A DNA stretch of 53,744 nucleotides, taken from a virus. The translations under genes were made by a program, and so were the position numbers. The notes beneath the pieces were generated by a model that was not told the DNA's origin, did not search any database, and saw nothing but the letters and a program-made list of their open reading frames with translations. This document shows, in pieces, positions 5,283 to 49,305 of the stretch (positions are counted from its first letter, which is position 1; every line of letters begins with the position of its first letter). The stretch is taken from IMG/VR virus record IMGVR_UViG_3300023174_000218, positions 1 through 53,744 of that record; one strand, given 5' to 3'.

Positions 5283-5286
5283 TGCT

Positions 5287-5337: not shown

Positions 5338-5353
5338 AAGTTAATGGGTATGA

Positions 5354-12443: not shown

Positions 12444-12445
12444 AG

Positions 12446-30524: not shown

Positions 30525-31151
30525 TTAGTTACCGGCTCTAGTACGTTCAGGTGCAGAATTAGAAGCCTCGTAACCTGTTGCATAAGATACATCCCAACCT
30601 TCATGCACTAGAGACATTTCTTCTACCATAAGGGTATTAGCTCCTGCATCTAGATTGCTATAGGATAGGGATGAGATCCAAGCATTGTATACCTTAAAAC
30701 GAAGTGATGTGTGTTGCTTAAGATCAACATCTGCTTGTGTACCACCTGTGCCACCAGTACTTGCCTGAGGATTTGGATGGCTTAAAACTTGGATATCAAG
30801 GTCACAACGGAATCCGGCACCAACACCAGTTGTATAGCTAGGAGTTAGAACTGAAAACAGACGCTTCATCCATTTTGCATTTGAATCTTGTCCCAACATT
30901 ACTCCTTTAGAAAGAGTGATTGGGCTGAATGCTGATTGACCAGGGATTTGGTGAACGTTAGTATTATATCCACCTTCACGATAGGCAATAGGCTCAGTTG
31001 TTACATTAAGGCCAGATAGAGAAACAAACCCCATCTTTGCTGGCTTTGATGTATCTTTCCATTCATCTGTTGGTATAAACGATACTAAGAACTTAAAATT
31101 ACGGACTGGATCCGTCATTAAAGTACTTAATGTATTATTAGTTGCTGGCAT
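30525..31151 (-). CDS. Tail tube protein, T4 gp19-like
   Basis: A 208-residue protein with a GGAGA ribosome site. It opens with D-P-V-R-N-F-K-F-L-V-S-F near 13-24, then S-L-S-G-L-N-V-T-T-E-P-I near 43-54, then Y-N-T-N-V-H-Q-I-P-G and W-M-K-R-L-F. The N-F-x-F-x-V start and the S-L-S-G-L motif are typical of the gp19 tube family found in phages and contractile injection systems. The tube is the inner hollow cylinder that passes DNA. It lies between sheath and assembly-protein genes. Confidence 0.94.
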   Translation of the reverse strand: MPATNNTLSTLMTDPVRNFKFLVSFIPTDEWKDTSKPAKMGFVSLSGLNVTTEPIAYREGGYNTNVHQIPGQSAFSPITLSKGVMLGQDSNAKWMKRLFSVLTPSYTTGVGAGFRCDLDIQVLSHPNPQASTGGTGGTQADVDLKQHTSLRFKVYNAWISSLSYSNLDAGANTLMVEEMSLVHEGWDVSYATGYEASNSAPERTRAGN

Positions 31152-31166
31152 TTTTATTTATCTCCT

Positions 31167-32951
31167 TTACGCTGATGCGTTTCCGGTTAGTTGTCCAAGC
31201 TTAATGACAACAAACTCTGCTGGGTACTCAAGAGCTACACCTATTTCAATATTAACTTTACCTTGTTGAATATCGCTAAAGCTAGTTGTAGTATCGTCGC
31301 ACTTTACGTAAAATGCTTGAGCTGGATTTGTTCCACGTAGTCCACCTGATTGCCAGTAAGCAAGAAGGAAGCTACTTAAAGATGTGCGAATTTGAGACCA
31401 TAGACGTGAGTCATTGTTCTCAAAAAGAGCAAACGATGTTAGATCATTAATAGACTTCTCAATGTAGATTAAAGAACGTCGGATATTGATATAACGGTTG
31501 TTTGGAGTATTATCAAGAGTGCGGCCACCCATGATAACAATACCTGCGCCAGGAACCTGACGGATAGCATTAATTGGATCAACTGATGTATTGATAGCAT
31601 CAAGTTCAGCATTAGTAAACAAGTGCTCAGTAGATACAGCAAGAGCCATAACATTCTGAAGACCTGCTGGAGTCTTGGCTGGACCACGAGATGCATCAGT
31701 AGCAATGTACTGGCCAACAACACCGGCGCCAGGAGCTTGTAGGCGAGTTACGCCAATCCCCTTATTCACATCTGGAATGCTGTACCAAGGGTAGTAAGCT
31801 GCTGCAATATTTCCTGAAGTAACTCCAGAAAAAATAGCGTAAGTTGCACTTACTTGAGTTTGTGCAGCAGTTGCTGATAGTCCAGCAGGAGTATCAAAAA
31901 CTGCAAAACAATCATTGCGACTAGCTGCATAAGCAACTGCGTCACCATGAATTTGTGCTGTAAGAGTACTTGTTGCAGCATATGGAGCATCTGGTGCGTA
32001 AATAACTAGAGGGTTAAGTACGGAATCAAATGTTGACCATGCTCCTGCATAATCAGAACGACCAAGAGATGCACCATCTGATCCTCCAGCAAATCCAATA
32101 AAACCAGTAGTAATTGCTGGAGTTTTTGTATTATCTAAACCTACGCTGCTAATAGTAATTACTGAAGTAGGATTAGAGTTAACAATAGAAAGAACAAAGT
32201 TTCTATCTGTAGATGCCATGCTTAAATCTGAATAAGATTCAATTAAGGTTGTAGATGAGTTGCCATTAACAGTAGTTGTCTGATATACCTCAAGACCAAA
32301 ACGGCTAGCAGAACCAGAAGCAACAATTTTAACTGAATAGTTACCGGACCAAGATCCAGCGCTAGCAGCATTAATTGTAAATACTGGGTTAGAAGGTACG
32401 GTTACTACTACTGTAGCTGTTGCAGAAGCACCGGTTACGGCAGTTCCTGTAGCAGCACTTGTAACAGTAAATTGTGAACCTGAACGAGTAGCAATAGTTG
32501 CATTAGTTAGGTTAAAAGCTGTTGTTGAAAGTCCAGTAATAGATACTGTTTGTCCAACAGCAAATGTGTTAGTAGCTGTGTATGTAATTGTTCCAGAAGC
32601 TGCAGAGGCTGCAGTTACTGTAGCAGTAGTAGTGGTAGTAGTTCCAGTACCATCGTTAACAATCAAGGATCCTGTTCCAGGACCTGATCCGATAACACGC
32701 TTTACATATAGATTGCGGCCACCATTAGCAAAAAAGTTATAGGCAGCCCAAGTTGTTGGGTATAAGTCATTTAATCCACCAAAAGTCTTAACAAAATCTG
32801 TCCAAGTACTTACTAGAACAGGTGCTAATGTAGGACCTTGTGGAAGAGCTCCAGCAAATGCTCCGACAGCGTTTGCAGTGTTTGCAGGCTGCACAGCTTG
32901 AGGAAGAGCTACTTCCTGGATATAGACTCCGGGACGGGCAAGATTTGCCAT
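31167..32951 (-). CDS. Tail sheath protein with inserted Ig-like module
   Basis: A 594-residue sheath protein with an AAGGAG ribosome site. It begins A-R-P-G-V-Y-I-Q-E-V, the conserved sheath start, with F-V-K-T-F-G-G and N-L-Y-V-K-R-V in the N-domain. The C-domain has A-P-G-A-G-V-V-G and N-R-Y-I-N-I-R-R-S-L-I-Y-I-E-K-S-I near 470-490, the polymerisation core. Residues about 110-190 are a Thr-rich module (T-I-T-Y-T-A-T-N-T-F-A-V-G-Q-T-V, then S-I-T-G-L) absent from minimal sheaths, probably displayed outside the tail. The same module type recurs in three other virion proteins of this window. Confidence 0.94.
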   Translation of the reverse strand: MANLARPGVYIQEVALPQAVQPANTANAVGAFAGALPQGPTLAPVLVSTWTDFVKTFGGLNDLYPTTWAAYNFFANGGRNLYVKRVIGSGPGTGSLIVNDGTGTTTTTTATVTAASAASGTITYTATNTFAVGQTVSITGLSTTAFNLTNATIATRSGSQFTVTSAATGTAVTGASATATVVVTVPSNPVFTINAASAGSWSGNYSVKIVASGSASRFGLEVYQTTTVNGNSSTTLIESYSDLSMASTDRNFVLSIVNSNPTSVITISSVGLDNTKTPAITTGFIGFAGGSDGASLGRSDYAGAWSTFDSVLNPLVIYAPDAPYAATSTLTAQIHGDAVAYAASRNDCFAVFDTPAGLSATAAQTQVSATYAIFSGVTSGNIAAAYYPWYSIPDVNKGIGVTRLQAPGAGVVGQYIATDASRGPAKTPAGLQNVMALAVSTEHLFTNAELDAINTSVDPINAIRQVPGAGIVIMGGRTLDNTPNNRYINIRRSLIYIEKSINDLTSFALFENNDSRLWSQIRTSLSSFLLAYWQSGGLRGTNPAQAFYVKCDDTTTSFSDIQQGKVNIEIGVALEYPAEFVVIKLGQLTGNASA

Positions 32952-36402: not shown

Positions 36403-36445
36403 CCTATAGTATACAGGAAACTTGTATAAGTAGGACCTATAGTAT
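36403..36445. repeat. Pair of ATACTATAGG direct repeats in a leader
   Basis: On the minus strand ATACTATAGG occurs at 36445-36436 and 36412-36403, 33 bases apart, in the 72-base gap between the dUTPase-like gene and the small virion gene. The second copy is centred in a partial inverted repeat (TTCCT ... AGGAA) with a TATACT core that could serve as a -10 element; no clear -35 is seen. They may be promoter or operator sites, but no common partner was found elsewhere. Confidence 0.3.
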
Positions 36446-37233
36446 TAAAGATACCGTTTTTTAGTACGGTAAAACCTTTTATAGGATCCACCCACTTGCT
36501 TATTGCCAGGCCCATATCCATCTTTTTCATACTGTTCTGTCAGCAGTTTTTGACTTACCTTGAACTCATCAGATGGCTTAGTAATTACCTTTGAAGACCA
36601 GTCATCCCTTTTAAATGGGGTAATTTGAGCTATGGGAGTCCCGGCAGGTAAAACCCCACTAAAAGTGTTCTTTACAAAAAATGGAAAATTTATAGGCCTA
36701 AAATAAGAGTCTGTATCTACAACACCACTAAGCGTATAAAAAGGGAGGTAAGGTGCATTAGCTGGATGGCTAATTAAAGTGCTGTAGCCTGCCGGAGTTT
36801 TAATAACGTAGGGGTTTATCCACTTATAGGCAAAAACGCAGTATTCAGAAGAAAAGGGCATGGTACCAATTTGTTCTATAGGGTGCATACTCACAGGTTT
36901 ATATTCAGGATTAAATGACCCTGATATGGTGTGGTGACCTTTTTCTTCATCATACTTAAATTCATAATCTTTAGATGTAACAATATAGTAACCTAAAGTT
37001 AAAACATCTAATACTGGGATACAACGCTTTATTGTAAATTCTTCATGCTTATGAGAATGATTTGGGTGGTTTATAGATACTCTATTGTCAATTTTTTTAT
37101 ACCATTCCGGTATATTATCAATACTTTTAACTACATTAACAGGAGAACTTTTTAAGTCAGCATCAGTAAGTAGAAACTCTATCGTCTTTTCTTTTGATGG
37201 TGAGCTACTTACTTTGTGCTTATTCTTGAACAT
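36445..37233 (-). CDS. dUTPase-like-fold virion-region protein, copy 2
   Basis: 262 residues from the ATG at 37233 (M-F-K-N-K-H-K), with AGGA upstream; a longer frame would overlap the previous gene. It is a clear paralog of the 254-residue protein upstream: both have I-P-x-W-(W/Y)-K near the start, then a C-x-P-(F/V)-L-D-(A/V)-L strand, a P-x-G-(Y/W)-S-(T/V)-L stretch, L-S-G-V-V-D-T-D, and L-P-A-G-T-P-I-A-Q-I-T. The last two resemble motif 3 and the closing I-x-x-G-x-x-x-A-Q-L strand of dUTPase/dCTP deaminase (beta-clip) folds. Function unknown; see the paired entry. Confidence 0.7.
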   Translation of the reverse strand: MFKNKHKVSSSPSKEKTIEFLLTDADLKSSPVNVVKSIDNIPEWYKKIDNRVSINHPNHSHKHEEFTIKRCIPVLDVLTLGYYIVTSKDYEFKYDEEKGHHTISGSFNPEYKPVSMHPIEQIGTMPFSSEYCVFAYKWINPYVIKTPAGYSTLISHPANAPYLPFYTLSGVVDTDSYFRPINFPFFVKNTFSGVLPAGTPIAQITPFKRDDWSSKVITKPSDEFKVSQKLLTEQYEKDGYGPGNKQVGGSYKRFYRTKKRYL

Positions 37234-37984
37234 CTGTATCCTTTTTATATTTTTTAGGTACCCAAAGCTTAGATCGGTAATAACCAAACTGTACAGCCCT
37301 AGCTTTTTCAGCAATAAATTTTTCTTTAGGACCAAATACTCTAGATGTAGCTACCCATTCTTGTCTGTTTATTGGTATTAATTGTGCAAAGGGTGTGCCT
37401 TTTTCAATAATACCGGTCCAACCTTCTTTAAGAAAAAATGGAATATTTCCATTAGGAACAAATCTATCACTATCTACTATGCCGGATAAAGTTGTAAAAG
37501 GTAGTTGTGCTTGATTTAAAGGGTGTGTAACAAGTACACTCCAACCTTTAGGCACTTTCCATCCCCATTTACCATTCCATACCATGTGGTTGTGGGCGTG
37601 TCCTGCAGGCCTTGGAATAGTATACCCAATAGCACCTTTTCTTTCTGAAATCAACTGCCAATCAGTATTGCTATGTATATACTCTTCTTTAGAGTTTTTA
37701 TCTAAATATTTATATTCGATCTCTACCCCATCATTTTTAATAATTTCAATGTCAGCCCATGTAGTAAGAAAGTAACCTGAGTTAAGAGCATCAAGAAATG
37801 GCATACAAATTTTCATTCCAGCAGTTTTTAATTCTGGCTTATCTATATCTAAGTAACCAGTTTCTTTATTAATAAATGATTCCCCTTCTTTCCACCAATT
37901 AGGCAAAATAGATGCTGCTGGAATAGGGGTATTAATTGGCAACGTAAAATTTGGGTCTAATACAAATTCTATTTTTTTATACAT
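37220..37984 (-). CDS. dUTPase-like-fold virion-region protein, copy 1
   Basis: A 254-residue protein with an AGGAG ribosome site. It begins M-Y-K-K-I-E-F-V-L-D-P and has A-S-I-L-P-N-W-W-K near 24-32, C-M-P-F-L-D-A-L-N-S-G-Y-F near 60-72, P-R-P-A-G-H-A-H-N-H near 125, then V-P-K-G-W-S-V-L-V-T-H-P, L-S-G-I-V-D-S-D and I-E-K-G-T-P-F-A-Q-L-I-P. The order (P-x-G, then G-(V/I)-(V/I)-D-x-D, then I-x-x-G-x-x-x-A-Q-L) copies the dUTPase superfamily, though the usual first motif is not evident, so enzyme activity is doubtful. A structural virion role is possible. It is encoded next to its paralog. Confidence 0.7.
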   Translation of the reverse strand: MYKKIEFVLDPNFTLPINTPIPAASILPNWWKEGESFINKETGYLDIDKPELKTAGMKICMPFLDALNSGYFLTTWADIEIIKNDGVEIEYKYLDKNSKEEYIHSNTDWQLISERKGAIGYTIPRPAGHAHNHMVWNGKWGWKVPKGWSVLVTHPLNQAQLPFTTLSGIVDSDRFVPNGNIPFFLKEGWTGIIEKGTPFAQLIPINRQEWVATSRVFGPKEKFIAEKARAVQFGYYRSKLWVPKKYKKDTDVQE

Positions 37985-38344: not shown

Positions 38345-39523
38345 CTAGACTGTTACAAAGTTTACTTCATAACTAGAAAATGTAGTTCCTTGATTATAGT
38401 TTGCTGGTGCAAGAATCATACCATGAGTTGTAGTAGGTGTATAACCGGTAGCTGTATATGTCTGATCGGTGCCAATTTGGCTACCAAATCCTGAGGCTGA
38501 ATAGGCTCTTACTGTTATTTCTCCAGTATTTCCTTTAATTATTGTTTTAAGCCCAACAACTAAAGAAGAAAGAGTAAATGTTACTGCAGTGGTAATAGTT
38601 CCTGCTATAGATTTAAGAACGTTTACGGTATAGCTGTAGGAATAATTATAGTTGAAAGTATAGGCGTCATTACTTCCAGTAGCACAGGTATAAGAATAAG
38701 AATTACTTCCAGTAACACAAGTGTAAGTGTAAGAATTATCTCCGGTAACACAAGGGTAAGAGGAAGAATTATCTCCAGTAGCACAGCTGTAATAATAATA
38801 AGTTGTATATGAGTATGGAGTACAACGATATGCGTTGTAACCTTTTACACAGGTATAAGCAATGTAATAGCCTCCGTATACCTGCGAGTAACAAGTGCCG
38901 TAATTAGCGTTTCCACCAGTACAATAGTTTCCAGAGGAAGGATATGATCCAAGACATGATCCATAGTTAGTATTTCCAGCCGTATAGCAGGTGCCCCAGT
39001 TAGCATTGCCTGCAACAAAACAAGTGCCATAGTTAGCATTTCCAGCCGCATAGCAAGTACCGTAGTTAGTGCTAGCTGGAACATATTGAGTATCATAACT
39101 CTCAGTTGCATTAGTTGCTGTAGCCCACCAGTTATTACTATCTGTCACCCAGAAAGTAGCACCAACACCATTAGTTACGTTATCTTGAAGTATAGTGACA
39201 TCTGTAGCACCAAAGTCAATAGTAGCAATTGGATATGTGCTAGCAGCAGAGTTAGCTGTAGCTTTATTATCTATAATTCCCCAAGCCCCACGAATATTGT
39301 TCCAAGTATTAATTCCATCAGGAGAGCCTAAAGAAGTTGCGCTTGTAGTTCTTTGAAAACTATCTAGGAATATAGCTAAAAACCATTTCTTCCATACTCC
39401 GCCAACTTTAACCCAACCAGAAAGTACATTTCTCCAACTAGATGCTCCACCAGAAGTTACTTTTACAAGTATAGTTTTAGCAGCACGGTTCCAAGACCCA
39501 TCTACTTTAATTTGTGCTGGCAT
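38345..39523 (-). CDS. LamG-like fibre protein interrupted by an 11-residue Cys ladder
   Basis: 392 residues from the ATG at 39523, which overlaps the upstream stop (TAATG). Residues 1-50 contain a S-G-W-V-K-V-G-G-V-W tail-attachment-like motif. Residues 52-140 begin a jelly-roll domain (L-D-S-F-Q-R-T-T-S-A-T-S-L-G, then W-G-I-I-D-N-K-A) that seems to resume at about 290-392 (S-L-V-V-G-L-K-T, then V-R-A-Y-S-A-S-G-F-G). Between them residues 151-285 hold twelve cysteines: 157, 168, 179, 190, 201, then 211, 225, 234, then 247, 258, 269, 280. Two runs are exactly 11 residues apart, with Tyr, Gly, Asn around each. It is likely a receptor-binding fibre; the repeat fold is unknown. Confidence 0.75.
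   Translation of the reverse strand: MPAQIKVDGSWNRAAKTILVKVTSGGASSWRNVLSGWVKVGGVWKKWFLAIFLDSFQRTTSATSLGSPDGINTWNNIRGAWGIIDNKATANSAASTYPIATIDFGATDVTILQDNVTNGVGATFWVTDSNNWWATATNATESYDTQYVPASTNYGTCYAAGNANYGTCFVAGNANWGTCYTAGNTNYGSCLGSYPSSGNYCTGGNANYGTCYSQVYGGYYIAYTCVKGYNAYRCTPYSYTTYYYYSCATGDNSSSYPCVTGDNSYTYTCVTGSNSYSYTCATGSNDAYTFNYNYSYSYTVNVLKSIAGTITTAVTFTLSSLVVGLKTIIKGNTGEITVRAYSASGFGSQIGTDQTYTATGYTPTTTHGMILAPANYNQGTTFSSYEVNFVTV
38669..39073 (-). repeat. Coding 33-bp repeats (11-residue Cys ladder)
   Basis: This stretch encodes residues 151-285 of the LamG-like protein. Codon blocks of 33 bp repeat, first as N-A/T-N-Y/W-G-T/S-C-Y/F-x-A-G (four regular copies and partial ones), later as C-A/V-T-G-D/S-N-S-x-S/T-Y-x (four copies). 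The repeats are imperfect at DNA level, so they appear old enough to have drifted or are selected at protein level. Confidence 0.8.
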
Positions 39524-40455
39524 TACACGTACACCAACCAAATATCTCCATCAAGATATCCTGAGGTACTAGATGGTGCTGCGGTGTTTAAATAAATATT
39601 TCTTACTACGCCAGATGATGTACTAGCGGATGTAACTGCAGCGTTAGATGTAGCTAGGTAAGTAGTTGGGGTTACCCATGTAGCAGTTGTACCATTGCTT
39701 GTTAAAACGGTTCCAGAGGCTCCTAGAGCAAGTCTAGATACGGCTCCAGCTCCTGACCCAAGAATTAGATCTCCGGCCGTTGTAACGGTCGCTAAAGGGA
39801 TTTTAGAGGTATCTGTAGGCACACCCCAAGCAATAGATCCTGCACTTACAATAAGTGACTGACCATTAGACCCAATACCTAAACGACCAACAGTTGCTGA
39901 ACCTGAACCAATAATTAAATCGCCAGCGGTTGTAACGGTAGATAGTGGAATCTTAGCTGCGGCTGATGTTGTAGCTGTACCAATATTGGTAGTAATAGTT
40001 GAGTACTCTGAACTACCTACATAGAGAACGTTGCTAGATCCAACCTTAGGTAATCCTGCTGAATCTAAGTTAAAGTTAAGTGTGTTTGCAGATGAGTATG
40101 CTTCAATAAGGTTAAGGCTAGATGATCCAGCACGAAGAGTTAATCCTTTATTTGTAGTGGTAGTGATTGTGCTTCCACCCGCAGTTGATGCGTATGGCGC
40201 ACCTGTAACACCAGAAACAAGTCCTGCCTCAATATTAGCAAGACGGTCATATACAGTTCCCCAAAGAGTACCCTGAGAAAAAGATCCGGACCATGTTGAT
40301 ACCAGAGGGTTTTGGGATGTAGCAGCGCTACCTATTACTTCTTCAATCTTTTTAACTTCTTCTTGAAGGGAGTTAACGTTATCAGCAATAATTGTGTTGA
40401 CAAGATCCTGCTGGGCGGTGTAGTTTCTTACGCTATTGGGATATACGGCTGGCAT
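39523..40455 (-). CDS. Tail fibre protein with internal repeats
   Basis: A 310-residue protein with a GGAG ribosome site. The first 45 residues are helical (Q-D-L-V-N-T-I-I-A-D-N-V-N-S-L-Q-E-E-V-K) and would trimerise. Two tandem repeats of about 45 residues follow near 165-255, each with K-I-P-L-S/A-T-V-T-T-A-G-D-L-I and a G-S-G-x-x-x-V-x-R-L stretch. The end, D-G-D-I-W-L-V-Y, is a common fibre tip ending. This is the usual layout of short trimeric phage fibres. It starts the fibre series that runs into the Cys-ladder protein. Confidence 0.78.
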   Translation of the reverse strand: MPAVYPNSVRNYTAQQDLVNTIIADNVNSLQEEVKKIEEVIGSAATSQNPLVSTWSGSFSQGTLWGTVYDRLANIEAGLVSGVTGAPYASTAGGSTITTTTNKGLTLRAGSSSLNLIEAYSSANTLNFNLDSAGLPKVGSSNVLYVGSSEYSTITTNIGTATTSAAAKIPLSTVTTAGDLIIGSGSATVGRLGIGSNGQSLIVSAGSIAWGVPTDTSKIPLATVTTAGDLILGSGAGAVSRLALGASGTVLTSNGTTATWVTPTTYLATSNAAVTSASTSSGVVRNIYLNTAAPSSTSGYLDGDIWLVYV

Positions 40456-40499
40456 AGGACTCCTTAGTTATGCCCCTACTATAGCAGGAGGGCTATATA

Positions 40500-41057
40500 T
40501 TAGGAAGGGTTTATACGTTTAAAATTATCTATAATGGCAGCAGTATAGTTGCTTGGAATGTCCATAGTAAGTAATTTAGAAAATATAGCTTTTGACTCTT
40601 CTGATCTTCCTATCCACCAACCAGAAACAGCTTTTTCAAACTCTAAGGCAAATCTTCCTGGGTAACCTACAGCAACAGGTAGAGCAGGCTGCTCAACTTT
40701 AGAAAGACCCATAACAGCCCAAGTATAGGCATTATGCCATTCCGCCTTTTGTTCATAATATTGAGCCATAATAAAATAGGCTTCAGGGCGATCAGGGTTA
40801 ACTATCAATGCTTGGCGCCAACAATTAAGTACCGTATGCTCTCTATTATTTTGATTAGAAAAACAAACCGCCATTTTTAATAGGGAAGCATATGCCAGAT
40901 CATTGTGGGTATCCACTCCGTACTCAGCAGTCCTTAAATAAAAGGTTATTGCAGAAGCCGCCTGCTTTAATTCTTCGTACTTCATTGCTACCCTAAAGTT
41001 TAACTCCGGGTTAAAAGGGTCCTTAGACAGGTCTACTATCAACTCTTCAATTCTCAT
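40500..41057 (-). CDS. TPR-like helical repeat protein
   Basis: A 185-residue protein with tandem helix pairs of TPR type: F-N-P-E-L-N-F-R-V-A-M-K-Y-E near 17-30, A-Y-A-S-L-L-K-M-A-V near 54-64, and P-D-R-P-E-A-Y-F-I-M-A-Q-Y-Y-E near 86-102. The later sequence W-H-N-A-Y-T-W-A-V-M-G-L is also typical. Such modules accompany phage and bacterial glycosyltransferases or glycan-handling enzymes as scaffolds. It overlaps the propeller-fold gene upstream, so the two probably act together. A glycan-modifying role is inference from that coupling. Confidence 0.7.
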   Translation of the reverse strand: MRIEELIVDLSKDPFNPELNFRVAMKYEELKQAASAITFYLRTAEYGVDTHNDLAYASLLKMAVCFSNQNNREHTVLNCWRQALIVNPDRPEAYFIMAQYYEQKAEWHNAYTWAVMGLSKVEQPALPVAVGYPGRFALEFEKAVSGWWIGRSEESKAIFSKLLTMDIPSNYTAAIIDNFKRINPS

Positions 41058-42036
41058 AATTAAGAGCCTCCACGATTAATTCATCTACCAGTATTCCAGG
41101 GGTACGAAGAATAAAAGCGCAGTTATCGCTGACGCTAAAGCTTAGGAGTATATCCCCATCAAGCTTTGCCGCTCCAACGCAGAATTCAATTCGAGCATCT
41201 AAGAAAGAGAAGGGTTTAGATAAACCCACTAAATCTATATTGTTATCCCAGACACATAATCTATGACGATAGATACCGTCTTTTTGCATTAAGTAATTTT
41301 TAAATAGATCTACTTCATGGGTGATTGAGATGTAACCGTCACCCCATCTGACAAGTTGAGACCCCCCACGTTGATCTTTGTTTGGTCTGATACCTTGCTT
41401 GAGGGACACTTGTTTGGTAGTTTTGATTTCTGGGATGTATTGCACAACTTCCACAGGAGAAGCCCACTTAATAAAATTATAAGGCCTATCAGCAATAGGC
41501 ATCCAGTTTTTTTCACAGTATGAGGTATCAGGTTCTGGAGTCGGGATACGATCACGGTTAACCTCTTTAACAGTCCAAGTTTCTTTATCAATATCTATCT
41601 GGGTAAGTTCCATACGACCTTGACCACTAGTTGTGGTATCACGCCGCACCCCTATAATGTAATACTTATTATCCCATTGAACAAGGCGAGCATCTTCTAA
41701 ACCAACAAACTCCCAGATAGGAGTGTGTAGATTTAACATTTCTACCCTTGCGTGGTTAATTACTTCAAGGTTTTTATCTAACCTTACTAAGTAGTTTTCA
41801 GTAATTAAACGTTGATCTTTTTCAGGGTGTAGGTATGCCAAAGGTCCCCACGGGGATGGGAAAAGCTGCTTGTTCTCAGAATGATAAAGCGTGTAGTTAG
41901 TAGCTCTGACATTAACTAAGATATCTCCGTCATTATCTATGTAGATAGATGGATTCATCAGAGCTATCAGATCATGCGAAAAAACTAAAGGAGCTAACTT
42001 ACCACCACCCTGTACCGATTTTTGCACCAGATTCAT
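41047..42036 (-). CDS. GH130-like five-bladed propeller protein
   Basis: A 329-residue protein. Motifs in order: M-N-P-S-I-Y-I-D-N-D-G-D-I-L-V-N-V-R near 27-44, then E-N-Y-L-V-R-L-D, then F-V-G-L-E-D-A-R-L near 110-118, E-K-N-W-M-P-I near 174-180, and D-A-R-I-E-F-C-V-G near 280-288. N-P-S, G-L-E-D-A/P-R and E-K-N-W resemble glycosidase/phosphorylase family 130 and its relatives. If active, it would break or make beta-mannosyl-type linkages; the general acid Asp cannot be confirmed by eye. A tail-associated glycan depolymerase or a modifier of host surface sugars is plausible. It is coupled to a TPR gene. Confidence 0.68.
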   Translation of the reverse strand: MNLVQKSVQGGGKLAPLVFSHDLIALMNPSIYIDNDGDILVNVRATNYTLYHSENKQLFPSPWGPLAYLHPEKDQRLITENYLVRLDKNLEVINHARVEMLNLHTPIWEFVGLEDARLVQWDNKYYIIGVRRDTTTSGQGRMELTQIDIDKETWTVKEVNRDRIPTPEPDTSYCEKNWMPIADRPYNFIKWASPVEVVQYIPEIKTTKQVSLKQGIRPNKDQRGGSQLVRWGDGYISITHEVDLFKNYLMQKDGIYRHRLCVWDNNIDLVGLSKPFSFLDARIEFCVGAAKLDGDILLSFSVSDNCAFILRTPGILVDELIVEALNYEN

Positions 42037-42041
42037 AGTGA

Positions 42042-42314
42042 TTATTCTACAGTATTACGAAGCGCTTCAATCTCTTCTTCAGTTAATCCTGCTGCGATAA
42101 GTTTTTGTCTTGCTTCTTCTGCTGGGTTAACCTCTACAGGTTCAGGAGCAGTAAAGCGCCCTGTCTCTGCATCGTAAGTCCAACCAATACCCGCTGGATT
42201 TTCAGGGGTATACTCAATTAATTCTGCGCCCATAACTCTAGCCGCATCTTCTTTATCATCAGCAACAATTACATTGCTGACTGTGTTTCCACCCATTACT
42301 GCATATGTAGCCAT
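42042..42314 (-). CDS. Small fibre-region protein, 90 aa
   Basis: Begins M-A-T-Y-A-V-M-G-G-N-T-V-S-N-V-I-V-A-D-D and includes L-I-E-Y-T-P-E-N-P-A-G-I-G-W-T-Y-D. It is of the same type as the small proteins at 16612-16839 and 16836-17012. The acidic helical C-terminus (E-E-A-R-Q-K-L-I-A-A-G-L-T-E-E-E-I) is specific to this copy. A GGAAAT start context precedes the ATG. Located between glycine-rich and propeller genes, it may be a fibre-assembly or tip factor; role unknown. Confidence 0.68.
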   Translation of the reverse strand: MATYAVMGGNTVSNVIVADDKEDAARVMGAELIEYTPENPAGIGWTYDAETGRFTAPEPVEVNPAEEARQKLIAAGLTEEEIEALRNTVE

Positions 42315-42329
42315 ATTTATTTCCTTTTC

Positions 42330-43193
42330 TTAGTAGTAAATATAAACAACGCCGTTACCGCCTGAACCAGCAGTACCACCAGTAGGACAAGCACCACCAC
42401 CGCCTCCACCAGTTCCACCATTTCCTGCTGTAGCGCCCGAAGCGTTAGAACCTGCTCCCGTATATCCTGCGCCACCGCCACCAGCACCAAAAGATGTGCC
42501 AGTACCAGTTGAACCTGTACCACCTGCGCCACCATTGCCTGTACCACCTGCACCACCAGTTGCAATACCTACTGTTGACAATGAACCACCGCCACCGCCA
42601 ATTAGCCCTGCTCCACCTGCTCCCGCAGATTGATTTCCTGTGGTTCCAATATTTCCACCACCGCCGCCACCTGAAACACCAGCACCGCCAATATTAGGAG
42701 TTCCACCATTTACTGCGTTTGCACCATTTCCTGCATAACCAATGGTACCTATTGGAGCACCTGTATAAGAAACACCTCCAGCAGAACCACCACCAGTTGA
42801 CCCACCCCCACCACCGCCACCAATTCCTACTGACCCGCTAGCACCGCTTGAACCTTGTCCACCTGCTCCACCGCCACCAATAACCATTCCATAAACACTT
42901 GAACCGCCAACGGTTGAACCACCGAAAGTATTACCTCCTGTTCCGCCAGCACCAACGGTTACGGAAGTTGAAACATAAGTCCAACCAGCAGAATAACCAC
43001 CTGCTCCACCACCGCCTGCACCTGTTGTTGCAGAACCGCCACCGCCACCGCCGCCAATTACAATTGCATACACTCTTTGAATACCAGTTGGGATTGTTAC
43101 AGGAAAAGTTCCAGGCGTAGAAAATGTCTGTCGTAACTGCAACCCATAGGGGGTATCACTAAACTGTGAATTGTTATATATTGAGACGCTCAT
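42330..43193 (-). CDS. Glycine-rich adhesin-like protein 1 (subfamily A)
   Basis: A 287-residue member of the glycine-rich family. The N-terminal beta part reads Y-G-L-Q-L-R-Q-T-F-S-T-P-G-T-F, then I-P-T-G-I-Q-R-V-Y-A-I-V-I-G-G-G-G. A Gly-rich body follows with hydrophobic breaks such as S-A-G-W-T-Y-V-S-T-S-V-T-V and S-Y-T-G-A-P, and the end is G-N-G-V-V-Y-I-Y-Y. Copies at 46714 and 47539 share the N-terminal, W-T-Y-V-S-N and Y-T-G-A-P motifs (subfamily A). It probably forms a polyglycine-type bundle exposed at the tail. Confidence 0.75.
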   Translation of the reverse strand: MSVSIYNNSQFSDTPYGLQLRQTFSTPGTFPVTIPTGIQRVYAIVIGGGGGGGSATTGAGGGGAGGYSAGWTYVSTSVTVGAGGTGGNTFGGSTVGGSSVYGMVIGGGGAGGQGSSGASGSVGIGGGGGGGSTGGGSAGGVSYTGAPIGTIGYAGNGANAVNGGTPNIGGAGVSGGGGGGNIGTTGNQSAGAGGAGLIGGGGGSLSTVGIATGGAGGTGNGGAGGTGSTGTGTSFGAGGGGAGYTGAGSNASGATAGNGGTGGGGGGACPTGGTAGSGGNGVVYIYY

Positions 43194-43217
43194 ATAGACT
43201 CCTTATTAGTTATTGTA

Positions 43218-44081
43218 TTAGTAAAAAAGGTAAAGTATTCCTGCGCCACCGTTGCCAATTGCGTTGTTAGGATTACCACCACCACCGCCACCGCCAAGAC
43301 CACCAGCGCCACCAGCGCCGCCGCCTGCACCGTTACCTGCTATTCCAGCACCACCACCACCTGCGCCACCAGAGTTACCTGTGCCACCAGTAGTTACCGC
43401 GCCTGTTAAAATGTTTATTCCATTGCCGCCATTACCACCTAATTTAGTTCCTGAAGTGTAAACAGCAGCACCACCACCACCTGCTAAGCCATTACCGCCG
43501 TTACCGCCATTGTGGTTTCCAGTACTAGCAGAATTGCTACCGCCTGCGCCGCCAGAAATACCATCTCCACCTGCTCCACCGTTTGAACCTGATGTTGAAA
43601 TAGCCCTTCCACCACCGCCACCTGAACCAGAACCTGCTTTTGATGTTGTAACTCCAATAGACCCACCTGGTATGCCCCAATAATTAGTTGCACCTAGTCC
43701 ATCAGTACCACCACCACCACCAAGTATTCCATTATTACCACCACCACCGCCAGGGCCTGCAATTACATTTCCATAGCGCGTATAACCTCCAGAAGTTCCA
43801 ACAACACAACTAGAAGTTGCGATAGTCCAACCCCAAGCAATACCACCTGCACCGCCTGCAGAATAACCACCAGCACCACCACCACCAACAGCAATTGCAT
43901 AAACAAATGTAATTCCACTAGGAATTGTGACTGATGTAGTTCCAGCGTTGATTGTTTGTTGTAGTTGTAATCCATGCGGCAAAATAAAATGGCTAAACCC
44001 ATTAGCAGGAGCAGTATTAGCTGAAGGATTCCAACTAGACACTTGAGTGGCTGCTTTATTTCTTATGTATAAGTTTTTCAT
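43218..44081 (-). CDS. Glycine-rich adhesin-like protein 2 (subfamily B)
   Basis: A 287-residue paralog with a GGAGA ribosome site. It begins with charged residues and T-Q-V-S-S-W-N-P. It continues with G-L-Q-L-Q-Q-T-I-N-A-G-T-T and I-P-S-G-I-T-F-V-Y-A-I-A-V. Then come G-G-I-A-W-G-W-T-I-A-T-S-S-C-V-V-G and R-Y-G-N-V-I-A-G-P, and later G-N-G-I-N-I-L-T-G-A-V-T-T-G. It ends G-A-G-I-L-Y-L-F-Y. These motifs (Q-V-S-S-W, A-T-S-S-C-I-V, R-Y-G-N, I-N-I-L-T-G) define subfamily B. One conserved Cys is present per copy. Confidence 0.75.
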   Translation of the reverse strand: MKNLYIRNKAATQVSSWNPSANTAPANGFSHFILPHGLQLQQTINAGTTSVTIPSGITFVYAIAVGGGGAGGYSAGGAGGIAWGWTIATSSCVVGTSGGYTRYGNVIAGPGGGGGNNGILGGGGGTDGLGATNYWGIPGGSIGVTTSKAGSGSGGGGGRAISTSGSNGGAGGDGISGGAGGSNSASTGNHNGGNGGNGLAGGGGAAVYTSGTKLGGNGGNGINILTGAVTTGGTGNSGGAGGGGAGIAGNGAGGGAGGAGGLGGGGGGGNPNNAIGNGGAGILYLFY

Positions 44082-44090
44082 AACTATCTC

Positions 44091-44999
44091 CTAGTAAAAC
44101 AAATAAAGAATACCTGCGCCACCTGCGCCTGCAGTACCTGAACCTGAGCCACCGCCTCCACCGCCAAGTCCACCAGCACCACCAGTAGTTCCTGATGCCG
44201 CAGTTCCATTACCAGCAATACCACCACCACCACCACCTGCGCCGTTTGTACCAGTTCCTGTTGAACCTGCACCGCCAGTTGTAATTGCGCCAGTAAGAAT
44301 GTTTATTCCGTTGCCGCCAGTTCCGCCAGTACGAGTACCAGTACCTGCTTCAACAAGTCCTCCACCACCACCTGCTAAACCATTACCACCATTGCCGCCA
44401 GTATTTGTTTGAGAACCTGTTGCTCGTGATGAACCACCGCCACCGCCTGAGATTCCATTACCACCATTACCGCCAGTAATTGTTGTAGAACTTCCAAAAC
44501 CACCACCTGCACCAGAACCTGAGCCACCAGTTGTTGTTGTTGAAGTACCAGCAACACCGCCTGGTATTCCATAATAATTAGTTGCGCCAGCACCAATTGT
44601 TGAATAACCGCCGCCACCTGCTGAACCTAAAATTCCATTACTTTGTGCATTACCGCCACCGCCAGCGATTATGTTTCCATAACGAGTATAACCGCCATTA
44701 CCTGTACTAAAACCAGTACCACCAGCACCAACAATGCAACTAGAAGTTGCAATAGTCCAACCCCAAGCGACTCCACCTGCCCCACCTTGATTAGCACCAC
44801 CACCACCAACTGCAATTGCGTAAACAAAAGTTATACCTGCTGGAATTGATACAGAGGTTGTACCAGCGTTGATTGTTTGCTGTAATTGAAGGCCATAAGG
44901 TAAAATAAATGAAGTTAATCCATTAGGAGTGGCATTATCGTTTTGATTCCAGGTAGAAACCTGAGAACCAACTTCACCTCTAGGTAGATATTGATGCAT
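44091..44999 (-). CDS. Glycine-rich adhesin-like protein 3 (subfamily B)
   Basis: A 302-residue subfamily B paralog with R-G-E-V-G-S-Q-V-S-T-W near the start, the I-P-A-G-I-T-F-V-Y-A-I-A-V strand, A-T-S-S-C-I-V-G-A-G-G, R-Y-G-N-I-I-A-G-G and I-N-I-L-T-G-A-I-T-T-G. It ends G-A-G-I-L-Y-L-F-Y, nearly the same as its left neighbour. Very high similarity of the N-terminal and C-terminal segments to copy 2 suggests recent duplication. The Gly-rich middle differs in length and in hydrophobic residues, the part expected to vary if it contacts receptors. Confidence 0.75.
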   Translation of the reverse strand: MHQYLPRGEVGSQVSTWNQNDNATPNGLTSFILPYGLQLQQTINAGTTSVSIPAGITFVYAIAVGGGGANQGGAGGVAWGWTIATSSCIVGAGGTGFSTGNGGYTRYGNIIAGGGGNAQSNGILGSAGGGGYSTIGAGATNYYGIPGGVAGTSTTTTGGSGSGAGGGFGSSTTITGGNGGNGISGGGGGSSRATGSQTNTGGNGGNGLAGGGGGLVEAGTGTRTGGTGGNGINILTGAITTGGAGSTGTGTNGAGGGGGGIAGNGTAASGTTGGAGGLGGGGGGSGSGTAGAGGAGILYLFY

Positions 45000-45009
45000 T
45001 ACCTACCCC

Positions 45010-46185
45010 TTAGATTATACGGTTAACGTATCCTGAGATTGCAATAGCGTTAGCTTGAGAAGCATATGCATAGATTGCAGAATAGTTTGTAGAAGCATTA
45101 GGAGACAAAATTAAACCTGGATTTATAAGAGTCAAACCAGAGTTTCCAGGAATTGTAATAGTCATTTCCTGTGATGGAGTTGCTAATGCCTGTGGGAATG
45201 TAGATGCGGCACCAAATGTCTGAGGTCCGCCTACTATTAAAGATAGAACAACCGCTGAGTTTGTTAAGTTAGTTGCGTATAACCAGACCTCATCAAGACC
45301 ACCACCAGTATTGTTATGTATAAATGTACCAATAGCAGGAAGTGCTGATGCGGTACCTGTCTGTGCTGAAAGAATTGTTGTGAGAGTTGATGGAACAGAT
45401 ACTGTAAATCCAAATGCATATGTTGTTGATGTTGGGGCGGCTAAAGTTGATACAGAGAGAATTGGTGTTGAACCAACGTTATAACCTGTAGTAGTTAAAC
45501 CAGATACACCTACTAATTGAGTTGCGGCAAATATTTGGGCGTTAGTAGAGTACACATAAGAGTATAAAGCGTTATAAGAGGTTGCTGTACCTGACTGAGA
45601 GGTGAGTGCAATAGCAGATGTGCTAAATGGAACTGATGCGGTAAAGGTAGTAGATGATGGGACGGTTACAATTGTAATGTTTGCTAAGTTAGCAAGTGCT
45701 GAGTTAGTTCCTGATAGACCCGTAATAGTGACGGTCTGACCAACAAGAAAACCGTGAGCCGCAGATGTTGTGTATGTAACTGTGTTTGTGTTACCAGTTA
45801 ATGCTGCTGCGGTTACAGTTGCAGTTGTATTTGATACCGCTACCGTTGCTGTACCACCTGATGTGTAAGATTGTGAAGCAACTGCGCTGGTTACAGTGAA
45901 AGAAGAGCCTGTAGCAGATGTAATAATTGCGTTAGTTAAGTTGGCGTTAGTAAAACCAACAATACCTGTAATAGTAACAACTTGACCAGCAGTAAATGTA
46001 TTAGTTGCTGTATAGGTAATTACAGAACCAGTAGTTGTTGCGTTGGTAATTGTTGCAGTAATAGCTGTACCAACTGGCGCCTGAACGTTAGCAACTGTAC
46101 CAGTGGCTAAAAGAGTAGGAGTAGTAACAAGGGTGGGGAAAGAGTTAGATTGCCCTGATAAAATTACCTTGCTATATGTTGCCAT
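45010..46185 (-). CDS. Virion protein with two Ig-like modules
   Basis: A 391-residue Thr/Ser/Ala-rich protein. Residues about 40-115 and 120-190 are two tandem modules (V-I-T-Y-T-A-T-N-T-F-T-A-G-Q-V-V-T-I, and T-V-T-Y-T-T-S-A-A-H-G-F-L-V-G-Q), each closing with S-S-F/T-T-F-x-V/A strands. The C-terminal 190 residues are a separate beta-rich domain (Y-A-F-G-F-T-V-S-V-P; E-V-W-L-Y-A-T-N-L-T-N; M-T-I-T-I-P-G-N-S-G-L), related in style to virion surface proteins. It sits inside the glycine-rich array and starts with M-A-T-Y-S-K-V-I-L-S-G. It may decorate the head or fibre; unknown. Confidence 0.65.
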   Translation of the reverse strand: MATYSKVILSGQSNSFPTLVTTPTLLATGTVANVQAPVGTAITATITNATTTGSVITYTATNTFTAGQVVTITGIVGFTNANLTNAIITSATGSSFTVTSAVASQSYTSGGTATVAVSNTTATVTAAALTGNTNTVTYTTSAAHGFLVGQTVTITGLSGTNSALANLANITIVTVPSSTTFTASVPFSTSAIALTSQSGTATSYNALYSYVYSTNAQIFAATQLVGVSGLTTTGYNVGSTPILSVSTLAAPTSTTYAFGFTVSVPSTLTTILSAQTGTASALPAIGTFIHNNTGGGLDEVWLYATNLTNSAVVLSLIVGGPQTFGAASTFPQALATPSQEMTITIPGNSGLTLINPGLILSPNASTNYSAIYAYASQANAIAISGYVNRII

Positions 46186-46223
46186 TTATATTCTCCTTAA
46201 TTATAGATTTTATTGTAACAGTT

Positions 46224-46682
46224 TTAAAAGATTTGACTCGCTAAGACTATTTGATCTCCATCGCCTTTTGTTAAATTACCAACAGAATCAATGCCACTAA
46301 GGGCAGTTCCTGTGGGGTTTCTCCATTCAATTAACCTACCAGTTTGGCCAGTTAGCCCCTGAACTGCAAATCCAACTGATCCGCTAGTTGTTGGGTAAAC
46401 AACTTGGCTAGTTCCAAAACCAGTTCCCTGAACTCCCTGTATACCCTGGATACCAAAGCCACCAGTCAATCCCTGTGTTCCTTGAGGACCAGCACCACCG
46501 CCAGCGCCTGTAAATCCCTGTAAACCAATTGTACCCTGTAATCCTTGATTACCTTGAACTCCCTGAACAGATACAGAACCAACAGATTGCCAAACGGAGC
46601 CAGTCCAAAGCCACGTAAGACCACTATATGTATATGTGGTTACGTTTGGGGTTAACCCTGATGTTGGAAAAGTAATTGGCAT
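46224..46682 (-). CDS. Collagen-like fibre protein, short
   Basis: 152 residues. The first 40 form a beta start (T-Y-T-Y-S-G-L-T-W-L-W-T-G-S-V-W-Q-S). Residues 42-92 are Gly-x-y repeats of the G-x-Q type (G-V-Q-G-N-Q-G-L-Q-G-T-I-G-L-Q-G, later G-I-Q-G-I-Q-G-V-Q-G) with a short Gly-rich break. The C-terminus is V-Q-G-L-T-G-Q-T-G-R-L-I-E-W, a common fibre tip start. Gly-x-y with little Pro but much Gln, as in other phage collagens, would make a triple-helical stalk. It may be an adaptor for an adjacent glycine-rich protein. Confidence 0.8.
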   Translation of the reverse strand: MPITFPTSGLTPNVTTYTYSGLTWLWTGSVWQSVGSVSVQGVQGNQGLQGTIGLQGFTGAGGGAGPQGTQGLTGGFGIQGIQGVQGTGFGTSQVVYPTTSGSVGFAVQGLTGQTGRLIEWRNPTGTALSGIDSVGNLTKGDGDQIVLASQIF

Positions 46683-46713
46683 TTAAAACTCCTTAAATCT
46701 ATTATACATTTGA

Positions 46714-47529
46714 TTAGTAATAAAGAAGTACTACTCCATTACCTCCATCACCACCTCTACCATTTGTTGCTGCACCGCCTCCTCCACCTCCGCCTGCACC
46801 GCCAGTACCGCCATTAATACCAAAACCTGGTGAACCTGCGCCTAAAAATCCAGCACCTCCACCTCCACCACCTGGATTATTAGTGCTACCAATTCCTCCA
46901 GAATAAAAGTCTCCAGTACCGCCTACTCCACCAGTTCCTGTTGTTCCTCCTCCTCCGCCACCTCCACAAATTAAACCTCTACCCCCCGTAAAACCAGTTC
47001 CAAAATTATTTGTGCCCCCTCCTCCGCCTGTTGATACACCGTCTCCGCCATTGTTAAATCCATTTCCAGCCCCAGAAGCATAACTAATTCCACTAGCACT
47101 AGCGGAAGGTGCGCCAGTATAAGAAATAGTTGAGTTTTGATTTGTTGGGGTTGCGACTCCTGCAGCGCCTCCACCGTTTCCAGTAATCAAACTTCCTCCT
47201 CCACCACCAGCCATCACCATTCCGTAAATTGATGAACCACCAACAGCACCAGTACCAACAACCGCTGTGCCAATACCACCAGCGCCTACTATTACTGTAT
47301 TTGAAACATAAGTCCAGCCTTGTGAGTATCCACCAGCTCCACCGCCTCCAGTTCCTACAGTAGTAGAAGAACCCCCTGCACCACCGCCACCAATTACGAT
47401 TGCATAAACTCTTTTAATATGAGATGGAATTGTTACAGATGAAGTTCCAGGGGTAGAAAATGTCTGTTGCAATTTAAGCCCCAAAGGAGTATCACTATAC
47501 TGTGGACTTTGATTAATATCACTACTCAT
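46714..47529 (-). CDS. Glycine-rich adhesin-like protein 4 (subfamily A)
   Basis: A 271-residue subfamily A paralog. It has Y-S-D-T-P-L-G-L-K-L-Q-Q-T-F near the start, I-P-S-H-I-K-R-V-Y-A-I-V-I-G, Q-G-W-T-Y-V-S-N-T-V-I-V, G-M-V-M-A-G-G-G-G and S-Y-T-G-A-P. It ends G-V-V-L-L-Y-Y. The N-terminus matches copies 1 and 5. The Gly-rich body has several hydrophobic interruptions that differ from copy to copy. No transmembrane or enzymatic motif is present. Confidence 0.75.
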   Translation of the reverse strand: MSSDINQSPQYSDTPLGLKLQQTFSTPGTSSVTIPSHIKRVYAIVIGGGGAGGSSTTVGTGGGGAGGYSQGWTYVSNTVIVGAGGIGTAVVGTGAVGGSSIYGMVMAGGGGGSLITGNGGGAAGVATPTNQNSTISYTGAPSASASGISYASGAGNGFNNGGDGVSTGGGGGTNNFGTGFTGGRGLICGGGGGGGTTGTGGVGGTGDFYSGGIGSTNNPGGGGGGAGFLGAGSPGFGINGGTGGAGGGGGGGAATNGRGGDGGNGVVLLYY

Positions 47530-47538
47530 TATTACTCC

Positions 47539-48375
47539 TTAATACCATAGAAAAACAGCGCCATTTCCTCCAGAACCTGCTAAGCCTAATGTTGAGGCAC
47601 CACCGCCACCGCCTCCGCCTAAACCACCATTACCACCATTATTTGCTATTGCATTAGCCCCAGCAGAAAGATAACCAGCACCACCACCACCACCACCAAA
47701 ACCAAAACCTGTTCCTGATGAACCTGTGCCACCTGCAAAGAAATCGCCAGTACCACCAGCACCGCCTGTGCCTGTACCTGCTGTTCCTGCTGCTCCGCCT
47801 CCGCCTGTGATTAGACCACGACCTGAAGCAAATGCAGTTACAGTTCCAGTTACTGTTGCTGAACCAGCACCGCCTCCGCCTGAAACACCGCCAACGCTAG
47901 GGCCACCAAGAGAACCGCCACCTGCATAACCAACTGAACCACTTGTAGCCGCTGGCGCACCAGTATAAGAAATTGTTGAAGTAGCAGTTGTTGAAGGAGT
48001 TGCGCCTGAACCTGCTCCTGCCTGTTGTCCGTTTGTTGAACCAGCACCACCACCAGCCATCACCATTCCGTAAATTGATGAACCACCATTAGCACCAGCA
48101 GCCGCAGTTGAAGTTCCAGCACCACCAGTTCCAACAGTTACTGTGTTTGAAACATAAGTCCAACCTTGTGAGTATCCTCCTGCTCCACCGCCTCCACCGC
48201 CACCAGTTGCCTGTGATGAACCTGCTCCACCACCACCAATTACTACAGCCCATACACGGTTAATTCCTGCAGGAATAGTAACTGGAAATGTTCCAGGAGT
48301 AGAAAAAGTTTGTTGTAGCTTTAAATTGTACGGCGAATCAACAAATGATGAATTCTTATAAATGTCTATGCTCAT
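47539..48375 (-). CDS. Glycine-rich adhesin-like protein 5 (subfamily A)
   Basis: A 278-residue subfamily A paralog starting M-S-I-D-I-Y-K-N-S-S-F, with N-L-K-L-Q-Q-T-F-S-T-P-G-T-F, I-P-A-G-I-N-R-V-W-A-V-V-I-G, G-W-T-Y-V-S-N-T-V-T-V and the end A-V-F-L-W-Y. It lacks cysteine, unlike subfamily B. Its centre has A-F-A-S-G-R-G-L-I-T-G-G, a break that is also found as R-G-L-I-C-G-G in copy 4. It lies next to copy 4, and both start in the same way, indicating duplication. Confidence 0.75.
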   Translation of the reverse strand: MSIDIYKNSSFVDSPYNLKLQQTFSTPGTFPVTIPAGINRVWAVVIGGGGAGSSQATGGGGGGGAGGYSQGWTYVSNTVTVGTGGAGTSTAAAGANGGSSIYGMVMAGGGAGSTNGQQAGAGSGATPSTTATSTISYTGAPAATSGSVGYAGGGSLGGPSVGGVSGGGGAGSATVTGTVTAFASGRGLITGGGGAAGTAGTGTGGAGGTGDFFAGGTGSSGTGFGFGGGGGGAGYLSAGANAIANNGGNGGLGGGGGGGASTLGLAGSGGNGAVFLWY

Positions 48376-48384
48376 AGTTGTCTC

Positions 48385-49299
48385 CTAGTAAAAAAGATAA
48401 ATCAATCCTGCGCCGCCATTAGCACCCGAACCACCGCCACCGCCACCAAGTCCGCCAGCACCACCAACTGTTCCTGATGCAGCATTTCCATTACCTGCCA
48501 CTCCTGCACCGCCACCGCCACCGCCGTTTGCGTTTGTTCCAACAGACCCAGTACCACCACGCAAAGGTGCCCCCGTTAAAATGTTTATTCCTGATCCGCC
48601 GTTACCACCAGTACGAAAACCAGTTGAGGTAATTGCTCTCCCTCCACCTCCACCTGCTAAACCTGAACCACCATTACCACCAGTTTCAATTCCTGTTCCT
48701 GTAGTAGCAAGACCGCCACCGCCACCTGAAATACCATTTCCGCCATTACCGCCAGGAATACCAGGAGTAAATGAATAACCCCCTCCTCCTCCTCCACAAC
48801 CAACATTTCCGTTACCAGGCGTTCCTGAAGCACTATTAAAGCCACCAGTTCCCGCAACAATTCCCCAATAATTTGTTCCACCTGCTTGCGGATTTATTCC
48901 AAGTTGTCCACCTGCTCCGCCACCTCCCAATATTCCAGTAGCGGTACTTGGAAGAGCGCCACCGCCAGCAATAACGTTTCCGTAACGTGTATGACCACCT
49001 CCTGAAACACCAGAAGCACCTCCAGCACCAACAATGCAAGATGAAGTTGCAATAGTCCAGCCCCAAGCAATTCCACCTGCACCGCCGCCTGCCGCAGAAC
49101 CACCACCGCCACCGCCAACTGCAATGGCGTAAACCCAGTTAATACCATTTGGTATTATTACTGTTCCAGTAGATAATAAAGTTTGGCGCAATTGCAAACC
49201 ATAAGGAGTAATAGTAGAACCAGTAATAACAAAATTGGATGACGGAAACCAACTTGATACTTGTGAGGATACTTCGCCTTGTTTTAAATGTTTATTCAT
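48385..49299 (-). CDS. Glycine-rich adhesin-like protein 6 (subfamily B)
   Basis: A 304-residue subfamily B paralog. It begins M-N-K-H-L-K-Q-G-E-V-S-S-Q-V-S-S-W and contains P-Y-G-L-Q-L-R-Q-T-L, I-P-N-G-I-N-W-V-Y-A-I-A-V, A-T-S-S-C-I-V-G-A-G-G, H-T-R-Y-G-N-V-I-A-G-G and I-N-I-L-T-G-A-P. It ends G-A-G-L-I-Y-L-F-Y. It carries the N-terminal segment shared with copies 2, 3 and 7 and has an additional cysteine within a G-C-G-G-G-G run. The hydrophobic breaks differ from those of copies 2 and 3. Confidence 0.75.
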   Translation of the reverse strand: MNKHLKQGEVSSQVSSWFPSSNFVITGSTITPYGLQLRQTLLSTGTVIIPNGINWVYAIAVGGGGGGSAAGGGAGGIAWGWTIATSSCIVGAGGASGVSGGGHTRYGNVIAGGGALPSTATGILGGGGAGGQLGINPQAGGTNYWGIVAGTGGFNSASGTPGNGNVGCGGGGGGYSFTPGIPGGNGGNGISGGGGGLATTGTGIETGGNGGSGLAGGGGGRAITSTGFRTGGNGGSGINILTGAPLRGGTGSVGTNANGGGGGGAGVAGNGNAASGTVGGAGGLGGGGGGSGANGGAGLIYLFY

Positions 49300-49305
49300 A
49301 ATTTA

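Follow-up and report, generated by a model that had tools for sequence, protein, structure and literature searches.

What kind of structure is built by a stretch of protein in which cysteine recurs at strict 11-residue steps, in the middle of a phage tail gene? The question is raised by a gene (hereafter the ladder gene) in a viral DNA of 53,744 nucleotides (IMG/VR record IMGVR_UViG_3300023174_000218, positions 1 to 53,744; this whole stretch is called the window), which lies on the minus strand and encodes 392 amino acids from an ATG that shares bases with the stop of the fibre gene just upstream (39523-40455); the open reading frame (ORF) listing gave 398 aa from a TTG at 39541. An earlier note on this DNA had placed twelve cysteines, with 11-residue steps among them, in residues 151-285 (38669-39073), and translation confirmed its counts and coordinates, as well as its remark that the two halves use different consensus blocks (YGTCYAAGNAN in the N arm and YSYTCATGSNS in the C arm). 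The mirror relation of the two arms was absent from that note. We consider it probable that the gene encodes a lectin-type jelly roll of a minor tail protein, carrying a greatly lengthened two-stranded beta-hairpin with six nested cystine rungs that serves as a receptor arm. Its parts are listed below, with AlphaFold2 (AF2) confidence given as pLDDT (predicted local distance difference test).

38345 to 39523, minus strand: ladder gene, whole, 392 aa, ATG start
39374 to 39523, minus strand: residues 1-50, short beta module QIKVxGSWN...GWVKVxGVWKKWF, AF2 pLDDT 56-80
39074 to 39373, minus strand: residues 51-150, N-terminal jelly-roll half with the motif GATFWVTDSNNWW, AF2 pLDDT mostly 85-98, flank profile matches in at least 60 distinct ORFs
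39080 to 39133, minus strand: residues 131-148, predicted strand (AF2/DSSP) at the N-side base of the proposed hairpin
38669 to 39073, minus strand: residues 151-285, cysteine ladder, 12 Cys, mirror sums 435-437
38891 to 39073, minus strand: N arm, residues 151-211, Cys 157, 168, 179, 190, 201 and 211, block YGTCxxxGNxN
38852 to 38890, minus strand: tip, residues 212-224, YSQVYGGYYIAYT, conserved turn, near-identical in the relative L027
38669 to 38851, minus strand: C arm, residues 225-285, Cys 225, 234, 247, 258, 269 and 280, block YxYTCxTGxN
38606 to 38659, minus strand: residues 289-306, predicted strand (AF2/DSSP) at the C-side base of the proposed hairpin
38348 to 38668, minus strand: residues 286-392, C-terminal jelly-roll half, AF2 pLDDT 92-98 except for the last residues, C-flank profile

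No cysteine lies outside residues 151-285, where cysteine makes up 8.9% of the sequence versus 0.51% in the other proteins of the window (binomial p 9e-12). The gaps between successive cysteines are 11, 11, 11, 11, 10, 14, 9, 13, 11, 11 and 11, and none of 200,000 random placements of 12 cysteines in the block gave seven gaps of 11. When the cysteines are paired from both ends, their positions add up to nearly the same number (157+280 = 168+269 = 179+258 = 190+247 = 437, then 435 and 436), with Cys 211, 225 and 234 completing six nested pairs. Mirror sums as tight as these arose in only 12 of 200,000 placements. Aromatic residues stand opposite glycine in 19 of 195 pairs in the mirror register versus 4-14 at shifted registers, which is suggestive, but this signal is too weak and was not used. 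The window holds no second copy of the ladder DNA, nor any template copy of the insert, that we could find.

Relatives were sought in IMG/VR contigs with a flanks-only query, then with the pattern F..TD..NWW, and then with local profiles of both flanks. They form one jelly-roll family (FWVTDxxNWW) of at least 60 distinct ORFs, all unannotated. The N-flank profile, DxFxR...GxWxI...GAxFWVTDxNNWW, scores the window protein, itself one of its 14 seeds, at E 2e-35 and relatives to E 1e-11. DNA patterns of the ladder alone brought up the nearest relatives and otherwise chance hits, of which L006, L011, L015, L016 and L017 were dropped after translation. In nearly all relatives a Cys-rich insert sits at the same site, which is bounded by the strand that follows FWVTDxNNWW and by the strand YxVxxxKSxxGT. 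Three members (L066, L117 and L138) have there a bare 10-residue turn (YSLSDGVYLS), suggesting that the parent domain has a hairpin turn where the insert sits, and in L059 the insert is Tyr-rich and free of cysteine. The cysteine spacing differs from member to member, namely 5 (L060), 7 (L025), 8 (L023 and L032), 11 (window) and 12 (L022), while the 34 cysteines of L125 are spaced by 13 on one arm and by 12 on the other. The strict 11-residue period of the earlier note holds in both halves of the window protein, but within the family it is confined to the subfamily of that protein.

The five nearest relatives (L001-L004 and L010/L012; 71-73% identical) have 10 cysteines each, five on either arm, and their mirror sums are about 416-420. 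Compared with L001 and the other nearest relatives, the window protein has one more cysteine on each arm, the arms growing together from 44 to 54 residues (N) and from 48 to 55 residues (C). The same is seen between L024 and L028, which differ on the N arm by blocks of 14 and 7 residues and on the C arm by blocks of 14 and 7 as well, carrying two and one cysteines, respectively, each time. Identity between the window protein and its nearest relatives is 80-89% in the flanks and 55% in the insert, so the ladder is the variable part.

Other features of the family were noted along the way. In L066 (8875-10968, reverse-complement coordinates), L117 and L138, the jelly roll is followed by long poly-proline runs between several Cys-rich modules, a further uncommon design for a phage tail protein. 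L161 (8911-10221) has 42 cysteines, its N arm repeating CC every 9/11 residues and its C arm repeating C at 6, 5, 6, 3, with four cysteines per 20 residues on both arms despite the differing patterns. L145 carries two neighbouring family genes in tandem (3396-4325 and 4775-5710) with differing Cys-rich inserts. Self-contained motifs occur in some inserts (L105, L113, L103, L088 and L029-L031), with CACGNxxADxMxCCC appearing twice in direct order or YxCPSGGTLxGxTC at both ends; these may form small disulfide knobs locally along the hairpin.

Whether the mirror layout goes beyond simple repetition was judged by permuting each protein's own gaps. A first version of this palindromy test took in 21 clusters; the final one has 17, with L029, L103, L121 and L105 left out because both of their arms share a motif or carry a direct repeat. 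Gap lists are palindromic at p <=0.05 in 11 of the 17 clusters (Fisher 2.8e-12), and the signal persists without the outermost gap on each side (Fisher 1.4e-8; direct-order symmetry control 0.009), these combined p-values overstating the independent evidence, as some clusters may be related by descent and a single motif seeded the search. The gaps of L022 (12, 12, 11, 20, 11, 12, 12) form a perfect palindrome, those of L025 (7, 7, 6, 5, 7, 5, 16, 5, 7, 5, 5, 7, 7) are off by one residue, and in L023 an irregular 5 has its mirror counterpart on the opposite arm. Nested pairs were also scored by chain counting, a statistic with too little power at near-uniform periods. Of 48 distinct complete inserts, 47 have an even number of cysteines (L101, the odd one out, has a single cysteine and is not a real insert), as do all 33 insert clusters, and half of the cysteine number is odd in 17 of 34 clusters (with totals such as 10, 14, 18, 22, 30, 34 and 42). 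Totals that are even but not divisible by four argue for disulfide pairs between the arms and against four-cysteine metal sites or pairs within an arm.

The scaffold of the insert is better defined by prediction. With five close relatives as input, AF2 gave no usable fold (pLDDT 30); with 31 family members, it predicted the jelly roll at pLDDT 90-98, and homologues agree with the earlier note that the block interrupts a LamG/concanavalin-like jelly roll. The ladder, residues 152-285, stayed below pLDDT 50 in this model. The predicted strands flanking the insert (131-148 and 289-306) are in mirror register as well, with 131+306 = 148+289 = 437, equal to the mirror sum of the cysteines, the strand ends being taken from DSSP ranges and not from coordinates. 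A Foldseek search of the PDB places the central fibre protein gp20 of mycobacteriophage Douge first (8zdp; E 2.6e-3, probability 1.00), followed by legume lectins and SPRY domains (E range 2.6e-3 to 0.2). Against BFVD, it returns six uncharacterised proteins of uncultured Caudovirales (to E 7.5e-26) and then minor tail and fibre proteins of actinophages, whose central fibre/minor tail matches span about 350 columns. On these predicted models, the protein resembles the concanavalin-like lectin/LamG superfamily at the level of fold only. Pfam, including its LamG and lectin models, gave no match for eight family members, and sequence searches of Pfam, PHROGs and PDB with the ladder protein and its flanks returned nothing, in keeping with the earlier view that no described family has this layout. 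The module of residues 1-50 has a 41% identical counterpart that opens the Gly-rich proteins of L013/L014 and also several family members; it is the probable virion-attachment part.

From the mirror layout, the parity, the paired indels and the strand register, we infer that facing cysteines form disulfides. The six rungs would be 157-280, 168-269, 179-258, 190-247, 201-234 and 211-225, the two arms running antiparallel as a ribbon that would end in a Tyr-rich turn (YGGYY). Since 11 is an odd number of residues, successive rungs would point to opposite faces of the ribbon, barring bulges in between. The protein would be a minor tail (fibre- or baseplate-associated) component, and its facing cysteines would oxidise to cystine after the virion leaves the reducing cell. 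The rungs would replace the missing hydrophobic core and lend stiffness and protease resistance to an otherwise floppy ribbon. The jelly roll could then stay fixed while holding out a rigid arm free to change its sequence, the tip and faces of which would probably touch the host receptor.

Several points weigh against this account. Most gaps of the window protein are of one size, so that on its own it reaches only p 0.04 when its gaps are permuted, and the gap statistic finds no mirror pattern in 4 of the 17 clusters (L021, L161, L069 and L149). The motifs CPSGGTLxGxxC and CACG...CCC of some inserts could pair locally. The hairpin itself is unmodelled by AF2, the agreement of strand ends comes from DSSP ranges, and receptor contact, although probable, is argued by analogy. 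The cytoplasm in which virion proteins are made is reducing, and the window showed no thioredoxin. Two other ladder contigs have thioredoxin-like genes (84847-85397 on G008, the contig of L125, and 12327-12572 on G011, the contig of L053); the ladders on these contigs have 34 and 20 cysteines.

The alternative that survives best accepts the hairpin but makes it only a rigid spacer or a trimer clamp, possibly with inter-chain disulfides, instead of a receptor arm. Regular repeats of variable length do look stalk-like, and the arm has no known binding partner. We nevertheless think this unlikely, as the insert changes much faster than its flanks, and as its tip is kept between distant members: the tip of the window protein (GTCYSQVYGGYYIAYTC) is nearly matched in L027 (GTCYAFIYGSYYIAYGC, also given as CYAFIYGSYYIAYGC), where it sits at the exact middle of the insert, even though the flanks of L027 are only 36% identical to those of the window protein and its ladder is quite different. 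Such conservation suggests a function at the tip. In addition, the closest solved fold is that of the Douge tail, whose lectin-like surface domains bind host glycans (PMC13033339).

The earlier note had suggested a disulfide- or metal-stabilised solenoid. Its disulfide part is supported by the even cysteine number in every insert cluster, while a single-chain solenoid of 11-residue turns, whose cysteines would stack along its axis and pair from one turn to the next, now appears improbable. Either half of the window protein keeps a strict period, which would suit such a fold, and an even total permits sequential pairs. However, relatives have periods of 5, 7, 8, 12 and 13 at the same site, a hairpin turn; the gaps are mirror-symmetric beyond mere repetition; and the five cysteines per arm of the nearest relatives would leave one per arm unpaired unless joined by the turn. 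Moreover, rungs change on both arms together and not independently along one axis, and the predicted flanking strands pair in mirror register.

Metal binding (iron-sulfur or zinc), within one chain or on the trimer axis, is very improbable. Regularly spaced cysteines near Tyr and Asn and the known metal sites of phage tail spikes would speak for it, but half of the clusters have cysteine numbers that do not fit four-cysteine sites, there is no regular His, and a mirror layout with two cysteines per level fits pairs. Equally improbable is a low-complexity, fast-evolving, disordered sequence whose cysteine regularity stems from recent repeat slippage: the low pLDDT and an insert rich in Gly, Asn, Ser, Tyr and Thr would agree with it, but even cysteine numbers, the mirror layout, different arm blocks, paired indels and the lack of another copy of the ladder DNA in the window do not.

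The genomic setting is that of a tail. Judged by its gene content, the window covers part of the genome of a contractile-tailed phage, with the following genes:

21022-22770: baseplate J-like protein
24366-25232: hub
27206-29527: M23-peptidase tail protein
30525-31151: T4 gp19-like tube
31167-32951: tail sheath
39523-53236: run of fibre-like genes, including Gly-rich and collagen-repeat proteins

The ladder gene comes directly after the fibre-like gene 39523-40455, and the order is the same in L003. Several neighbours of the ladder gene deserve mention. A TPR protein and a 329-aa protein (40500-42036) stand among the tail fibre genes and are kept in L003; the latter, which has no Pfam match, reads in its sequence like a beta-propeller glycosidase or phosphorylase and may modify or sense glycans. 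Beside the ladder gene, two adjacent similar-looking proteins (36445-37984) are also kept in L003, one of them with a weak DUF6065 match (E 9e-5). A fibre-region protein at 45010-46185 matches the ubiquitin E1 FCCH domain (PF16190, E 7.6e-10), likely reflecting a beta-barrel repeat rather than ubiquitin chemistry. Family members were found neither in isolate phages (tblastn, six queries), nor in plasmids (one query), nor in GTDB genomes. No reverse transcriptase (RVT_1) was found in 12 contigs with ladder members, these records being fragments, which argues against a diversity-generating retroelement (DGR).

The proteins of this phage are poor in cysteine (0.5%), and a tail family with up to 42 apparently paired cysteines is therefore unusual. 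If the arms are zippered as proposed, the family would be a natural case of very long and rigid hairpins that can mutate freely while their scaffold stays fixed. The maturation of disulfide-rich virion parts outside the cell could then be tested directly, and the sequences could be drawn on for stapled-hairpin design. The analysis also gives a description to a large group of 'uncharacterized' proteins in phage metagenomes, and indicates that the mirror symmetry and parity of cysteines can point to a fold that AF2 leaves unresolved. More tentatively, and with slightly more doubt than belief, we propose a widespread undescribed receptor-binding architecture in tailed phages of uncultured bacteria, in which a lectin-like scaffold bears an ultralong disulfide-zippered hairpin that diversifies rapidly in length, period and sequence by paired addition and loss of rungs and is oxidised only after release, as a phage counterpart of the bovine ultralong third complementarity-determining region of the antibody heavy chain (CDR-H3).

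Among known proteins, those of uncultured Caudovirales (UniProt A0A6J5KM36, A0A6J7WYT9 and others; 19-27% identical, structure E-values to 7.5e-26) are nearest, and very probably belong to the same family; all are annotated 'uncharacterized', with the ladder undescribed. We know of no cysteine-ladder insert in the central fibre and minor tail proteins of actinophages. Proteins of this kind (Douge gp20, PDB 8zdp, and those of Arthrobacter phage GurgleFerb and Rhodococcus phage ReqiPepy6) are the best structural matches and resemble the ladder protein as glycan-binding tail domains, although identity is 7-10% and the PDB E-value only 2.6e-3. The lectin-like surface domains with which Douge binds host glycans include parts of its central fibre (PMC13033339). 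The nearest phage concept to the ladder hairpin is found in tentaclins and other DGR-diversified C-type lectins, in which a phage lectin-type domain has a variable surface beta-hairpin (PMC10743442), but these have a C-lectin fold and are diversified by reverse transcriptase. In the literature searched, we found no description of a ladder of this kind in phage tails; jelly rolls are a familiar type of domain, but a zippered hypervariable arm seems to have gone undescribed there.

Outside phages, theta-defensins have parallel disulfide rungs across two antiparallel strands. They are cyclic, with 18 residues and rungs two residues apart, whereas the rungs of the ladder family are 5-13 residues apart on an open hairpin inside a domain. 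The bovine ultralong CDR-H3 is likewise a greatly lengthened hairpin loop of a beta-sandwich, with a fixed scaffold and variable length and sequence, and it shows a CP(D)G motif reminiscent of CPSGG in some ladder-family members. Its cysteines are almost always paired, in one case fully nested [1-6, 2-5, 3-4] (PMC6440498). Fold and organism are unrelated, however, and the ladder family is without a somatic mechanism; the cow knobs are globular, with mixed pairing of 4-8 cysteines, in contrast to the up to 42 cysteines in a long regular ladder. The ladder hairpin would thus work like the stalk of CDR-H3 and like a stretched theta-defensin ladder, while being related to neither.
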